From: Citrifermentans bemidjiense Bem
GTDB taxonomy: Bacteria; Desulfobacterota; Desulfuromonadia; Geobacterales; Geobacteraceae
Length of the DNA stretch: 64,000 nucleotides
Assembly (NCBI RefSeq): GCF_000020725.1
Contig: NC_011146.1
Coordinates: forward strand, 2,789,501-2,853,500
Direction: 5' to 3'
The stretch's first letter is position 1, and every line of letters begins with the position of its first letter. Under the pieces are notes generated by a model. It did no database searches. It saw only the letters and a program-made list of their open reading frames with translations, and had not been told where the DNA came from. Both the position numbers and the translations under genes were made by a program. Positions 5,300 through 61,673 of this stretch are shown piece after piece.

Positions 5300-5384
5300 C
5301 CAGCAAATAAAGGTGAACCGCTGAGAAAGCTATGGTGGTTGTCTTACTTTGTCAATTGAAGTTCGTGGTGTTCGCCTTGCTTTG

Positions 5385-5440
5385 TCAATTGTCAATTGTC
5401 AATCGTCAATTGTCAATTGGGGTTCAGGTCAATTGGGGTT
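5385..5440. repeat. Heptamer array (TCAATTG)5 and TCAATTGGGGTT duplication
   Basis: Five tandem 7-bp units run from 5385 to 5419; the third is TCAATCG. The last unit starts a 12-bp direct repeat, TCAATTGGGGTT, at 5413-5424 and again at 5429-5440, where it overlaps the stop codon of the activator gene. A second array with the same unit and the same variant unit lies at 58541-58571. Confidence 0.75.
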
Positions 5441-33465: not shown

Positions 33466-35707
<2,242 letters not shown>

Positions 35708-35708
35708 G

Positions 35709-36818
35709 CTATCGACCGTACCCGCCCGCAAGCTTCACGCCCGGATAGTAGTAACTGAGTATCTCGCGGTAATCGAACCCCTCGATGGCGCGCCCCTTGG
35801 CGCCCCACTGGCAGAGCCCCACGCCGTGGCCCGAACCCGAACCGACGACCAAAAGCTCGTCACCCGATTGGCGCAGCTCGAAGTTGGTGCTCTTCACGGC
35901 GCCGTAGCCGAGCGCCTTCCTGAAGGCGACGCCTGGGACTGCTACCTTGCTGCGGGAGGAGTCGACCAAGACGTCCTGCACGCGCCCGCTATCGTTTCTG
36001 CCGCGCACCCGGCACTCCCTTATCCCCGCCACCTGGTACCCCGCCGCACGGAGCGCAGACTCAACCTTCTTCAGGGGGAGCTTCAGTTCCCACTTGATGG
36101 GGTTGGACTCGCCGCAGTAAAGGCAGGCGACTCCCTGCAAATACGGGATCGACATCCCCCAGACGTTTTTGGAATTCTCGGTGTGCCCGGCGCAGTTGGA
36201 ATGGTAGAAGGCCTGGATGGTCTTGCCTTCGTAGGTGAGCACCTGGCCGGCGGTCTCCTCGACGCCTCTGGCAGCACGGCTGTCCTCGACATCCGCCCCC
36301 TCGTAGACCTGGTCCATGACGCTCGACTCCAGCTGGTAGGGAGCCCCGCGCCTGGCCTGCATCTGGTAAACGGCGTAGGAACGGGCGATCACCGCCTGCG
36401 CCTTCACGGCCTCCATGGGCCAGGCCGAGGAGATCTCGCAGTTGATGAGGCCAACCAGGTACTCCTCCAGCGGCAGGTCGTTCACCACCAAAAGCCCCTT
36501 CTGCGCGGGGCTCACTTCCACTACAGCGCGGTAACCCTTGCCGTTGACGCTGAGCCTGCCGGGAGCCACGGCGATCAGGCGGTCGACGCTCTTGCCGTTG
36601 ACCGACACGCCGCTAAAAGATCTTTTCACCTCAAGGGGCATTTCCAGGTCGAGAGGTTCGCCGCGGCCGTCCGTCAGAAGGACGCCGGAGCCGTCGATCC
36701 TGACGCTATCGACACCCTTGGAGAGGGCGACCCTGACCGTCTCCGGACGCATCGCCGCCACGCTGCCGCCGGCCGCGAGGCAAATTACCAGTATGATCAA
36801 CGCCCTAAAGAGACTCAT
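35709..36818 (-). CDS. SpoIID/LytB domain protein, probable secreted lytic transglycosylase
   Basis: A 369-residue exported protein with an N-terminal hydrophobic segment (about 3-20). The SpoIID domain shows [20 protein letters not shown], whose Glu corresponds to the catalytic residue in sporulation SpoIID, and the C-terminal [14 protein letters not shown]. In non-sporulating bacteria such proteins cleave denuded glycan strands or modify LytC-type amidases. The ATG at 36818 has only a weak site (ACGGA). It is the first gene of the run through queA, tgt and the sec genes. Confidence 0.85.
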
Positions 36819-57166: not shown

Positions 57167-57325
57167 ATGCAATGCCCCCACTGCAGCAGCAAAAAAGGAA
57201 TCGAGATCGACATGCATTCCGACGGCTATGCCAAGGACCTCCTGGAATGCACTTCCTGCGGCACGGTCTGGCTGGAAAAACAGAGCAAGATCATCATGGT
57301 GAACAGAGAGCAGCAAGCAGCCTGA
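57167..57325 (+). CDS. Small zinc-ribbon protein, 52 residues
   Basis: The ATG at 57167 follows TAGGAG with good spacing and a clear promoter. The peptide begins MQCPHCSSKKGIEIDMH and continues to ECTSCGTVWLEKQ, so two CXXC knuckles about 30 residues apart form a zinc ribbon of the type found in transcription or RNA-associated small proteins. The hydrophobic and acidic residues between them fit a three-stranded sheet. It is a stand-alone gene on the strand opposite to both neighbours and ends at a G/C hairpin. No further function can be assigned. Confidence 0.75.
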   Translation: MQCPHCSSKKGIEIDMHSDGYAKDLLECTSCGTVWLEKQSKIIMVNREQQAA

Positions 57326-57385: not shown

Positions 57386-58522
57386 CTACCAGGCAGTAAC
57401 CTCCGGCACCACCCCGTCAACTCCCGCGGCAACCCCTTCCAGAAAGCTGTCGTAAACAGGCGCCAGCTTTTCCCAGTCGTAGCGTTCCACGAAACCGTCC
57501 AGCGCCGCACCGTCTTCCCGGTCAAGTATCAGCGTTCTCAGCCTGTCCACGAATGCTTCCTCTTCGCGGTAGAGCACCTTTTCCCGCGCCTCGACAGGCA
57601 CATGCTCCGGGTAGGCGAGCCGGTCCGGGAAAAGGGGGCGGCAGCCGCAGTAAAGCGCCTGCACCGCGCTGGCACCGAAGAACTCCTGCCGCGAGGTGAC
57701 CGGCAGGATGTCGGCCCTCCAAAGCCAGGCGGCGTAATCGGAGAAACGTTCCAGGAATCCCCACTGCGCCACGCGGCAGCCTAGCCGTTCGCGCGCCTGC
57801 CGGAACACCCCGGGGGCGCGTCCGAAGGACTCCCCCACCACCGCCACCTCGAACTCGACCCCCTCGTCCGCCAGTTGGTAAAGCGCCTCGAAAAACGGTT
57901 CCGGCGCCTTGTCGAACTCCCAGCGATGGTTCCAAAGTAACAACGGCGCCCGGGCACCCTCGCCCGCCTGCGGGCGGTGCCGGTCCAGCTTGTGCAGGTC
58001 GAGCCCCAACGGGAGCACCCGGCTCTTTTCCCCGATGCGCGCAGCAGAATCTGCGTCTACCGCGTCGGGGAACCCCTTCAGAAACGCGGGGAGCGCCCCC
58101 AGGAAAGAGTCTCGATGGTAGCGGGAGTTGAAGAGGACCGCATCGGCCGCCAGAGCGCTCGCGTAGTTGATGAAGGCGTAGTGCAGATCCCTTTGCAGGG
58201 CCGGGTCCTGGTCGGAGGGGGACCAGGGATAGGTGAGCTGGTTCTCGTGGAAGTAGAGCGCGGTGCGAATGCCGTGGCTCTGGTTGCGGGTGAGCGCCAG
58301 GAAGGTGGTGAGGTCGAGCATGTCGGTGGCAAGGATCAGGTCCGGCCGCGGCAGCTCCAAAAAGCGGGAGGCAAGGGTCACTGCGCCGCCGTGCATGCGC
58401 CACTTCCAGTTGCGGCCGGGGAGCGTCAGGAGCTCGACCTCGTGGCTGCTGTGCGCCGCGTATTCCCTCGCCCAGGCGGCATGGGAACCGGTGAAGTAGG
58501 GCTCGACCAGGGTGATGCGCAT
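57386..58522 (-). CDS. Glycosyltransferase resembling tRNA-queuosine mannosyltransferase (GTDC1/QTMAN, former DUF3524)
   Basis: A 378-residue GT4-type enzyme. Its N-terminal domain (about 1-170) has LPGRNWKWRMHGG, ALYFHENQLTYPW and VLFNSRYHRDSF; the C-terminal nucleotide-sugar domain has NHRWEFDKAPEPFF, GESFGRAPGVF and EFFGASAVQALYCGCRPLFP. From memory these segments align with the human GTDC1 segments LPAKKWHWRA, ILYFHENQLIYP, PHRWEHDKDPESFF and EFFGVAMLEAVYCGCYPL. GTDC1 mannosylates queuosine in tRNA-Asp, and queA and tgt are in this window. AGAGGAG precedes the ATG. A tRNA substrate is inferred, not shown. Confidence 0.82.
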   Translation of the reverse strand: MRITLVEPYFTGSHAAWAREYAAHSSHEVELLTLPGRNWKWRMHGGAVTLASRFLELPRPDLILATDMLDLTTFLALTRNQSHGIRTALYFHENQLTYPWSPSDQDPALQRDLHYAFINYASALAADAVLFNSRYHRDSFLGALPAFLKGFPDAVDADSAARIGEKSRVLPLGLDLHKLDRHRPQAGEGARAPLLLWNHRWEFDKAPEPFFEALYQLADEGVEFEVAVVGESFGRAPGVFRQARERLGCRVAQWGFLERFSDYAAWLWRADILPVTSRQEFFGASAVQALYCGCRPLFPDRLAYPEHVPVEAREKVLYREEEAFVDRLRTLILDREDGAALDGFVERYDWEKLAPVYDSFLEGVAAGVDGVVPEVTAW

Positions 58523-58540: not shown

Positions 58541-58571
58541 CAATTGACAATTGACGATTGACAATTGACGA
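58541..58571. repeat. Heptamer array (CAATTGA)n
   Basis: Four tandem 7-bp units (58541-58568), the third being CGATTGA, plus a partial unit. Read in reverse complement it is TCAATTG with one TCAATCG, the same unit and variant as the array at 5385-5419. It lies between rodA and the glycosyltransferase gene. Confidence 0.75.
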
Positions 58572-58596: not shown

Positions 58597-59697
58597 TTAG
58601 AACATGAAGCGCCGCATGCTGATGTTCAAAAGTATCCCGACGCCGACCATGGAGGTGACCATGGAGGTGCCGCCGTAGGAGAAAAAGGGGAGCGGGACAC
58701 CGACCACGGGGAGCAGGCCGATCACCATCCCCATGTTGATGACGATATGCCAAAAGAGCATCGCGGAGACGCCGACGGCCAGAAGGGAACCGAAACGGTC
58801 GTTGCAGCGTTTGGCGATGGAGAGCCCCCAAAGGATGAGGAAGAGGTAGAGGGTCAACATCAACAGGCAGCCGGCAAACCCCCACTCCTCGGCGAAGACG
58901 GAGAAGGCGAAGTCGGTATGCTGCTCGGGGAGAAAGCGGAGCTGGGACTGGGTCCCCTGCATGAACCCTTTGCCGAAGGTGGCCCCGGAGCCTACGGCGA
59001 TCTTGCTCTGGATGATGTGGTAGCCGCTCCCCAAAGGGTCGAGGTCGGGGTTCAGGAAGTTGTAGATCCTATTCTTCTGGTAGTCGTGCAGCCCGAAGGT
59101 CCAGGCGCCGTAGACGATGGGAAGTGCGGCGGCGAAGAGGGAGGCGAGCGCGGACCAGCGCACCCCTACGAAAAGGAGCATGGTCCCGCCGATCAGGCTC
59201 ACCAGCACCGCGGTCCCGAGGTCGGGCTGCTTCATGATGAGCAAGGCCGGCGCCCCGAGGATGAGCAGCGGGTAGACCAGGTCCTTGAGGGTGAGCCCCT
59301 TGAAGATCGGGTAGCGGCTGAAGAACCTGGCGAAGGTCATGATGATGACGATCTTCATAGGCTCGGAGGGCTGCATGTTGAAGAAGCCGAGGTGGATCCA
59401 GCGGGTCGCCCCCATGCTGGTCTTGCCAGCCACGAGCACCAGCACCAGAAGGACCAGGACGCCGCCGTAGAGCCAGTAGGCGAAGTCCTCCAGCATATGG
59501 TAGTCGAGGCTGCAGACCGTGAGGCAGAGGATGAGACCCGCGAAGATCCAGTAGAGCTGCTTCAGGTAGTAGGGGGTGCCTATGTCCCGGTACGAGGACG
59601 AGGCGCTGTATATGTTGACGACCCCGAAGGCCGTGATGAGCAGCACCACCCCCAAGAGGGTCCAGTCGAAGTTGGTGAATAGCCGTCGATCGAACAT
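58597..59697 (-). CDS. rodA: Rod-shape-determining SEDS glycosyltransferase RodA
   Basis: A 366-residue peptidoglycan polymerase of the elongation machinery with about ten transmembrane helices. Conserved segments are GATRWIHLGFFNMQPSEPMKI (about 110), KQPDLGTA (about 158) and the C-terminal GVPLPFFSYGGTSM. AAAGGA precedes the ATG. It follows mrdA by 38 bases and is the last gene of the mre group. Confidence 0.95.
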   Translation of the reverse strand: MFDRRLFTNFDWTLLGVVLLITAFGVVNIYSASSSYRDIGTPYYLKQLYWIFAGLILCLTVCSLDYHMLEDFAYWLYGGVLVLLVLVLVAGKTSMGATRWIHLGFFNMQPSEPMKIVIIMTFARFFSRYPIFKGLTLKDLVYPLLILGAPALLIMKQPDLGTAVLVSLIGGTMLLFVGVRWSALASLFAAALPIVYGAWTFGLHDYQKNRIYNFLNPDLDPLGSGYHIIQSKIAVGSGATFGKGFMQGTQSQLRFLPEQHTDFAFSVFAEEWGFAGCLLMLTLYLFLILWGLSIAKRCNDRFGSLLAVGVSAMLFWHIVINMGMVIGLLPVVGVPLPFFSYGGTSMVTSMVGVGILLNISMRRFMF

Positions 59698-59735: not shown

Positions 59736-61673
59736 CTATCTGTCGGTGTTGCCGGACCTGTTCTCGGTTGCCGGAGTAGCCGGGGGAGCCTGGGGCGCGG
59801 CTTGCCTGTCGGGTTCGGCCACAGCTTCCCCCTCTTGCTGCGGCTGGACTTTCGGGACCGGCTTCTTGATGACGCCTTTCCCCTCGAAGTAGGCGCGCAG
59901 GACCTTGGCGGTCACCGGCGCCGCCGCGCTGCCGCCGTGCTCGCCGTGTTCCACCACGACGGCGACGGCGATCTCGGGCTTTTCATAGGGGGCGAACGCC
60001 ACGAAGAGCGCGTGGTCCCGGTACTTGTAGGCCATCCCCGCCTTGCTGTCGCGAACCACCTGGGAGGAACCGGTTTTCCCTGCGACCTTCACCTCCCAGA
60101 GCCTCGCCATGCCGCCGGTGCCGCGCGGCTCGTTGACCACGGCGAAGAGCCCTTCCTTCACCAGGCGATAGGTCTCGGGCTTCAACCCGGTCGTCCCCGC
60201 TAATTGGGGCGTGAACTCCTTGAGCACCTTGCCGTCCGCGTCGACCACCCGCTTCACCAACTGGGGGCGGTAGATTTTTCCTTCGTTGGCCACCGTGGCG
60301 ATCATGGAGGCGAGCTGGACCGGGGTGGTGAGCACGTACCCCTGCCCGATCCCGACCGGAAGGGTCTCGCCGGCAAACCATTTCTTGCCGAAGCGCTTCA
60401 GCTTCCACTGTTCGGTGGGGATGATCCCCCCCTTCTCGTTCTCAAGGCCGATCCCCATCGGCGCTCCCAGGCCGAAGCGCTTGGCGTAGGCCGCGATGCG
60501 GTTCACCCCCAGACGCTCGGCAAGCTTGTAGTAGAAAACGTCGCAGGATTCCCGCAGCGAGCGCCTAAGGTTCACCGTGCCGTGCCCCTTGTGCTCCCAG
60601 CACCTGAAGGTGGCGTTGCCGAACTTGTAGGAGCCGTTGCACTCGACCGTGGTGTTCTCGTTGATCAGCCCCTCTTCCAGTCCGGCGATGGCGGTGATGA
60701 TCTTGAAGGTGGAACCTGGGGGGTACATCCCCTTGAGCGCCTTGTTTTCCAAGGGGTGCCGCTCGTCTTCGAGATACTGCTTCCAGGTGTCGGGGGGCAT
60801 CCGCCCGGTGAAGAGCGCCGGGTCGTAGTCCGGGTTGGAGCTGAAGGCGAGGATCTCGCCGGTATTCACGTCCATGGCCACGACGGCCCCGGCCATGTCC
60901 CCCATGGCCTGCTCGGCGGCCTTCTGCAGGTTCAGGTCCACGGTGAGCATCACGGTGTTGCCGACGCTGGAGCCGGTCTCGGCCACGGTGCGCAGGAAGC
61001 GGCCGCGGGCGTCGACCTCGATCTGGCGCCCGCCGTCGGTACCGTGCAGGTAAGACTCCCAGGCCCTCTCGATGCCGCTTTTGCCTATGTAGTCCCCGGC
61101 GTTGTATTCCTGGTACTTTTCCGAGTTGAGCTCTTCCTCGTTGACCTCGCCCAGGTACCCCAGAAGGTGCGAGGCGAGCGTGCCGTTGGCGTAGGCGCGG
61201 ATCGGCTTCATCTCGATGTTCACCCCGGACAGGGAGAGCCGGTTCTCCTCAAGGAACTCCATCTGGTCCCGGGTGATGCCGGAGGCGACCACCAGCGGGT
61301 AGTACTTGGCCCTCCCCTGCCCCTTGTTCCACTTGGTCTCGATCTCGTTGCGGTCCAGGTTCAGGTAGCGCGCCAGGTTGTCTATCAACTGCTCCTTGTC
61401 CTTGACGTCCTGAGGTATGACGGCAACCGAGAAGGAGGGGGTGTTGGTGACCAGCACCTTGCCGTTTCTGTCGAGTATGGCGCCGCGCGGTGCGGCGACC
61501 GGGACGAAACGCAGGCGGTTGTTCTCGGACTGGTTCATCAGGTCGTCGGCATTGACCACCTGCAGGTACCAGAGCCTGGACAATAGCAGGAAAAAAATGG
61601 CGAAGGCGCCTAAGGAGAGGCCGATGATGCGGCGGCCGCCCCCGTCGTCGTCGGGAAGTATGTTGTGCTTCAT
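59736..61673 (-). CDS. mrdA: Penicillin-binding protein 2 (elongation transpeptidase)
   Basis: A 645-residue class B PBP that cross-links peptidoglycan with RodA. A membrane anchor (about 15-35) is followed by the dimerisation domain and the transpeptidase domain with STFK (in YPPGSTFKIITA, about 320), SCD (RESCDVFYY, about 374) and KTG (AGKTGSSQV, about 540). The C-terminus is a Pro/Ala/Glu-rich tail of about 50 residues. Its ATG overlaps the mreD stop (ATGA). Confidence 0.95.
   Translation of the reverse strand: MKHNILPDDDGGGRRIIGLSLGAFAIFFLLLSRLWYLQVVNADDLMNQSENNRLRFVPVAAPRGAILDRNGKVLVTNTPSFSVAVIPQDVKDKEQLIDNLARYLNLDRNEIETKWNKGQGRAKYYPLVVASGITRDQMEFLEENRLSLSGVNIEMKPIRAYANGTLASHLLGYLGEVNEEELNSEKYQEYNAGDYIGKSGIERAWESYLHGTDGGRQIEVDARGRFLRTVAETGSSVGNTVMLTVDLNLQKAAEQAMGDMAGAVVAMDVNTGEILAFSSNPDYDPALFTGRMPPDTWKQYLEDERHPLENKALKGMYPPGSTFKIITAIAGLEEGLINENTTVECNGSYKFGNATFRCWEHKGHGTVNLRRSLRESCDVFYYKLAERLGVNRIAAYAKRFGLGAPMGIGLENEKGGIIPTEQWKLKRFGKKWFAGETLPVGIGQGYVLTTPVQLASMIATVANEGKIYRPQLVKRVVDADGKVLKEFTPQLAGTTGLKPETYRLVKEGLFAVVNEPRGTGGMARLWEVKVAGKTGSSQVVRDSKAGMAYKYRDHALFVAFAPYEKPEIAVAVVVEHGEHGGSAAAPVTAKVLRAYFEGKGVIKKPVPKVQPQQEGEAVAEPDRQAAPQAPPATPATENRSGNTDR

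Follow-up and report, generated by a model that had tools for sequence, protein, structure and literature searches.

A QTMAN/GTDC1-family glycosyltransferase gene in Citrifermentans bemidjiense and its probable connection with queuosine in tRNA

Results

The QTMAN-family gene

A stretch of 64,000 nucleotides of the Citrifermentans bemidjiense Bem genome (C1:2789501-2853500 of a single contig of 4,615,150 bases; the window hereafter) was analysed around a gene related to the QTMAN/GTDC1 glycosyltransferases, which in animals attach mannose to the tRNA nucleoside queuosine (Q). The gene is an intact open reading frame (ORF) with an ATG start, and the segments WKWR, YFHENQLTYP, HRWEFDKAPEPFF and EFFG...YCGC, quoted in a preliminary description of this DNA, were all found in its product of 378 amino acids. 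The family membership claimed in that description was confirmed by a profile search of the product, in which PF12038.13 (QTMAN_N) was matched with an E-value of 2e-62 and 210.4 bits (curated cut-off 25); the alignment covers residues 2-174 of the product and the whole profile (positions 1-168 of 168). The Pfam name of this family is "tRNA-queuosine alpha-mannosyltransferase N-terminal", which we take to rest on work on the animal enzyme; the model so named already covers bacterial proteins. The C-terminal half matched the glycosyltransferase group 1 domain PF13692 (Table 1). A match of this half to PF00534 stayed under the cut-off (23.6 bits, cut-off 26.4), and an NCBIfam scan of the product gave no model above its cut-off. 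A GT-B fold was predicted for the protein, and matches to PDB structures agree with it. A sequence search up to E 1 for close relatives of known structure gave only a weak C-terminal match (5i45_A, E 0.017). PF12038 occurs in a single copy in the genome, and dN/dS values of 0.12-0.26 point to purifying selection on the gene. Taken from the sequence, these results support its assignment as a member of the QTMAN/GTDC1 family with a GT4-like C-terminal domain.

Retaining GT4 enzymes have an EX7E motif, which marks GT4 in general rather than the QTMAN family alone. Among 123 family sequences, the first position of this motif (residue 280 of the window protein) is D in 72 and E in 50, and the last (residue 288) is E in 104 and Q in 17. 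The sequences with Q288 include every one from Citrifermentans, Geomonas and Geothermobacter; E is found at this position in two close relatives, L033 and L047. In all 17, each of the 19 further conserved residues examined is retained. Another genome encodes a highly divergent PF12038 protein (L179, G381:C1:876504-876962; 41 bits), which forms the longest branch of the family tree, has T at both positions and possibly has another function.

Table 1. Features of the QTMAN-family locus and queuosine genes in the window
Feature	Position	Strand	Remarks
QTMAN-family glycosyltransferase gene	57386..58522	-	378 aa; PF12038 and GT4-like C-terminal domain
PF12038 QTMAN_N domain, residues 2-174	58001..58519	-	210.4 bits; holds SH, WKWRMHG, YFHENQLTYP, FNS
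Glycosyltransferase group 1 domain PF13692, residues 204-333	57524..57913	-	28.1 bits, cut-off 27
EX7E-type motif, residues 280-288, E-FFGASAV-Q	57659..57685	-	E280 present; second Glu replaced by Gln288
tgt, tRNA guanine(34) transglycosylase	33466..34584	-	TIGR00430, 538.6 bits; preQ1-type pocket GGLSVG
queA	34682..35731	-	NF001140, 470.5 bits; TIGR00113, 410.8 bits
rodA, next gene upstream	58597..59697	-	74-base gap
mrdA/PBP2, upstream of rodA	59736..61673	-	same strand as rodA
Zinc-ribbon ORF, downstream	57167..57325	+	52 aa; convergent with QTMAN-family gene; several zinc-ribbon families, below cut-offs

Queuosine genes of the host genome

The window also encodes the tRNA guanine(34) transglycosylase (TGT) and QueA, about 22-23 kb from the QTMAN-family gene. 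Both had been named in the preliminary description; tgt was found within the boundaries given there, while the start assigned to queA, 35707, is an inner ATG of a longest ORF that starts with TTG at 35731. Elsewhere in the genome QueH (C1:3855699-3856205, 218.8 bits) and GluQRS (C1:3557347-3558180, 349.6 bits, cut-off 276.7) were identified; for QueG the genome gave no match over the cut-off (22.7 bits vs 200). Since tgt, queA and queH are all present, the host should make Q, a prediction supported by these three genes. The genome contains a second full-length TGT paralogue at C1:3831086-3832159 (L217:7069-8175; PF01702, 542 bits) with the pocket GGVSVG, and TGT is likewise doubled in the relatives G148-G153.

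Distribution of the family

The family was found in 19 of 148 genomes sampled from the phylum of the window, 138 of which have a completeness of >=90% and a contamination of <=5%. Five other genomes drawn from the same family, order or class were without the gene, and PF12038 gave no match in 14 control genomes, Escherichia coli K-12 among them. A wider scan, with an alignment as query and one genome per species, confirmed at least 574 relatives, the best 80 of which were examined as loci. According to titles and taxonomy labels these 80, mostly metagenome assemblies, belong to Thermodesulfobacteriota, Bacteroidota, Balneolota, KSB1, Marinimicrobia/Fidelibacterota, Chloroflexota, Krumholzibacteriota, Omnitrophota, Myxococcota and, with the isolate Thermohalobacter, Bacillota. 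At least one label looks wrong, as L036, labelled Chloroflexi, is placed among Desulfuromonadales. The nearest named relatives among the matches listed are from Citrifermentans bremense (98% identity) and then Geomonas (71-74%). In one genome (G393) the gene consists of two overlapping pieces. No match was found in 50,697 phage records, and viral contigs gave one partial match (23%).

In a tree of 98 of the 123 family sequences, the window gene groups with relatives from Geobacterales and Desulfuromonadales, while 15 of the 18 sequences from the phylum sample form a separate clade (99/99). The bacterial sequences fall into several deep clades. Given this scattered placement together with the sporadic presence, the occurrence of the gene is patchy, and transfer from one lineage to another may take place.

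Co-occurrence with queuosine genes

The preliminary description had proposed co-occurrence with tgt/queA as a check of its reading. In the phylum of the window the comparison with queA is uninformative, because 143 of the 148 genomes have a queA match over the cut-off, all 19 carriers included; TGT was also present in 19 of 19. For 50 further carriers from the 80 loci, queA was over the cut-off in 45 and gave any match in 48, with none in G192 and G195. A search for TGT in 68 carriers (the 19 and 49 others) gave a match in 63, over the cut-off in 62.

Across the Chloroflexota the Q genes vary, and this phylum is therefore informative. Of 221 genomes, for which 90% completeness was a selection criterion and not confirmed per genome, the family was present in 25, a queA match in 135 and a TGT match in 176. 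All 25 carriers have TGT, and the family occurs in none of the 45 genomes without it (Fisher p 0.003); a common occurrence without tgt, which the preliminary description had regarded as decisive against its proposal, was thus not seen in this phylum. The family was found in 17 of 42 genomes with TGT and without queA, compared with 8 of 134 with both (p 4e-7).

These 17 carriers without queA seem at first to speak against an enzyme acting on Q, and therefore their TGT pockets were read. According to a published study (PMC11570991), queuine-salvaging TGTs typically have GG[LS][AS]G, and a model places the Val within 1 A of the diol of queuine. The TGTs of 15 of the 17, one per genome, all carry GGSLG in place of the GGLSVG of the window enzyme; like those of queuine salvagers, they are without the valine of preQ1-type enzymes. 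For six of the eight queA-positive carriers the pocket is GGLSVG (five) or GGLAVG (one). Among non-carriers, six TGTs from genomes without queA have GGSLG (G207), GGLSVG (G280 and G201) or GGLAG (G383, G369 and G417), and eight from genomes with queA have GGLSVG (four), GGLSLG (three) or GGSLG (G253). As the missing Val is common to GGSLG and the salvagers and the exact pattern is not, queuine salvage in the queA-less carriers is likely rather than demonstrated. Overall, the family seems to follow Q-containing tRNA however the Q is obtained. Two of the Chloroflexota genomes, G316 (L172, L194) and G276 (L157, L181), combine a valine-less TGT, Qng1 and QTMAN without queA, which is the animal gene set; in G316 the genes for Qng1 and TGT are adjacent (C19:39491-41529).

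Other candidate relations were tried and rejected. Neither mutual exclusion nor mutual dependence of QTMAN and GluQRS was seen in the phylum of the window, where GluQRS is over its cut-off in 4 of 19 carriers and 14 of 129 non-carriers (Fisher p 0.25). Qng1 (PF10343) is present in 57 of the 221 Chloroflexota genomes but in only two of the 25 carriers. QueH does not discriminate, being present in 29 of 30 genomes, all five chosen non-carriers included.

Gene neighbourhood

Besides the flanking genes listed in Table 1, a radical SAM gene lies downstream of the QTMAN-family gene. Neighbourhoods were compared over 80 related loci and 24 Chloroflexota loci with flanks of up to 8 kb per side; at least 7 kb on both flanks was covered in 28 of the 73 related and 16 of the 21 Chloroflexota loci with a called family gene. 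In the remaining 7 of 80 and 3 of 24 loci even the family gene escaped the ORF caller, and neighbouring genes may therefore have been overlooked as well. Each recurrent neighbour cluster was identified by one scanned representative, and glycosyltransferase or sugar-nucleotide families other than GT4-like ones were sought only in these representatives.

The gene for RodA was found near the family gene in three of the 80 related loci (C. bremense and two Geomonas), and that for PBP2 in four, all from Citrifermentans or Geomonas. Recurrent neighbours in the related loci are alpha/beta hydrolases (16 of 80), SpoIIE phosphatases, PrsW and oligopeptide permease, and in Marinimicrobia loci SmpB and a TyrRS-like gene recur beside the family gene. 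For the Chloroflexota they are LysM, DA1-like, LytR_cpsA_psr, Abhydrolase_2, UvrD and enoyl-CoA hydratase proteins, and others. Among the scanned cluster representatives there were no Q genes.

The alpha/beta hydrolase genes (e.g. L062:9223-10170) adjoin the family gene; in 14 of the 73 loci where that gene was called they follow it immediately and in the same orientation, mostly in Saprospiraceae and their kin. In the window a dispersed repeat, TTGACAATTGACGATTGACAATTGAC, is present in exact copies at 5384-5416 and 58544-58569 (0 expected in shuffles). The latter copy lies just upstream of the QTMAN-family gene, where C. bremense (L026) has one half-unit.

Discussion

Proposed function and alternatives

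The product of the QTMAN-family gene is probably a glycosyltransferase for Q at position 34 of tRNA (Q34), a reading to which we would give a probability of about 0.65; mannose and tRNA-Asp are assumed by default. As a retaining GT4-type enzyme of GT-B fold, it would transfer a hexose to a hydroxyl of the cyclopentenediol of Q34 in a GUN tRNA, probably tRNA-Asp, in a step that would follow the formation of Q by TGT, QueA and QueH. The hexose would probably be alpha-mannose, with GDP-mannose as the donor. The N-terminal half of a GT-B enzyme is usually the acceptor side, and here the family-defining N-terminal domain would bind the anticodon loop with Q34, while the sugar nucleotide would sit in the C-terminal domain. 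We infer the acceptor Q34 from the family name and the distribution, while GDP-mannose and tRNA-Asp are guessed from the animal enzyme only.

Several observations weigh against this reading. The second Glu of the EX7E motif is Gln in the window protein and 16 relatives. The gene does not lie beside the Q pathway, as the preliminary description had it, queA being about 22 kb away, and searches with TGT and QueA of the window gave no tgt or queA match in the ORFs of the flanks (up to 8 kb per side) of the 104 loci. Five of the 68 carriers (G154, G156, G175, G192 and G195; all metagenome-assembled by title, with completeness not given) have no TGT match, and G192 and G195 have neither a TGT nor a queA match. 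In the Chloroflexota queA is rarer in carriers (8 of 25) than in other genomes (127 of 196; p 0.002), an inverse relation that is reconciled only by the salvage explanation. Moreover, 14 of the 16 queA-less Chloroflexota sequences in the tree belong to one clade, so that genome counts overstate independence. When the carriers are collapsed by eye to eight lineages, TGT would be present in all of them by chance with a probability of about 0.16, and the TGT link is not significant. The salvage explanation has difficulties of its own, as GGSLG departs from GG[LS][AS]G letter for letter, also occurs in the non-carriers G207 (without queA) and G253 (with queA), and was read in genomes of which some have a further copy: in 9 of the 17 queA-less carriers a second TGT match lies outside the pocket reading.

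Within the reading as a Q34 glycosyltransferase, a variant can be considered in which Q34 is glycosylated with another sugar, at the other hydroxyl or in another GUN tRNA than tRNA-Asp, the family name then extending the specificity of the animal enzyme too widely. The several deep clades of bacterial sequences and the variation of the donor-side motif (D/E at 280, E/Q at 288) would fit it, as would the structural neighbours, among which enzymes with UDP-glucose, UDP-GlcNAc, GDP-mannose or another donor score at similar Z; no evidence favours any particular other sugar, and we regard this variant as possible but rather unlikely. Less probably, the protein is misnamed by its family and is an ordinary GT4 enzyme, unrelated to Q, for a cell-surface polysaccharide or a small metabolite. 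The generic GT4 fold, the cell-wall genes rodA and PBP2 upstream and the weak match of the C-terminal half to EPS_EpsE (23 bits, cut-off 400) are compatible with such a role, and so is LytR_cpsA_psr, a family linked to wall polysaccharides, which was found in 7 of the 24 Chloroflexota loci and is the sole recurrent neighbour that might point to polysaccharides. However, rodA and PBP2 are close by in only 3-4 of the 80 related loci, and the other recurrent neighbours scanned are hydrolases, SpoIIE, PrsW, SmpB, TyrRS-like, LysM, UvrD and similar proteins. A search for GT4-like ORFs is of the same tendency: a second such ORF was found nearby in one of 73 related loci (22.5 bits) and, apart from the split gene of L178, in none of 21 Chloroflexota loci. 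The distribution of the family, which tracks TGT even into the genomes with a valine-less enzyme, also argues against this explanation.

It is still more doubtful that the protein is a Q-related enzyme whose activity was lost or altered in the clade of the window. The exchange of the second EX7E Glu for Gln, where 104 of 123 sequences keep E, is what suggests it. The dN/dS values given above and the retention of the 19 other conserved residues in 17 of 17 Q288 sequences speak for a maintained function, and as the second Glu of GT4 enzymes contacts the nucleotide ribose, a Gln at this position could still bond with it.

Significance and comparison with known systems

For a wider statement the chances seem about even: that the sugar decoration of Q is no animal invention, and that scattered bacteria from at least eight phylum-level groups would make hexosyl-Q with a QTMAN enzyme. 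In Geobacterales and Bacteroidota this Q would come from synthesis, and in those Chloroflexota that have a valine-less TGT but lack QueA, two of which also have Qng1, from the salvage of queuine; in Citrifermentans the enzyme and GluQRS would compete for the Q34 hydroxyls. If a genetically simple bacterium has the enzyme and its relatives lack it, the role of a glycosylated wobble base would become testable. How one nucleoside is shared by two enzymes could be seen in a genome that encodes GluQRS together with a QTMAN relative, and the Chloroflexota pattern predicts queuine-salvaging bacteria with glycosylated Q.

The discovery of the animal QTMAN was reportedly published in Cell in 2023. In two other papers, mannosyl- and galactosyl-queuosine are described as animal tRNA nucleosides of unknown purpose (PMC12518689; PMC8654956). 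Titles and abstract openings of the open-licence papers listed in the literature searches yielded no report of QTMAN activity or hexosyl-Q in a bacterium, and the term DUF3524 did not occur in the papers listed by one of these searches. The present analysis adds a test of the family's distribution and the pattern of queuine salvage.

The GT4 enzymes MshA, BshA, PimA/PimB' and sucrose-phosphate synthase show 13-18% identity to the window protein in structural alignments, and their acceptors are small molecules or lipids. GluQRS (YadB), an aminoacyl-tRNA synthetase paralogue that puts glutamate on Q34 of tRNA-Asp, has the same nucleoside as target and its gene is present in the genome of the window, but it belongs to an enzyme class unrelated to the QTMAN family. 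The animal QTMAN/GTDC1, compared via the family profile and not the human sequence, belongs with the window protein to one Pfam family along the entire N-terminal domain, and in both a glycosyltransferase domain comes next; the host of the window gene likewise encodes what is needed for inserting Q into tRNA. In contrast to the animal system, this host is a bacterium with its own Q synthesis genes, and its protein has Gln in place of the second Glu of the EX7E motif.
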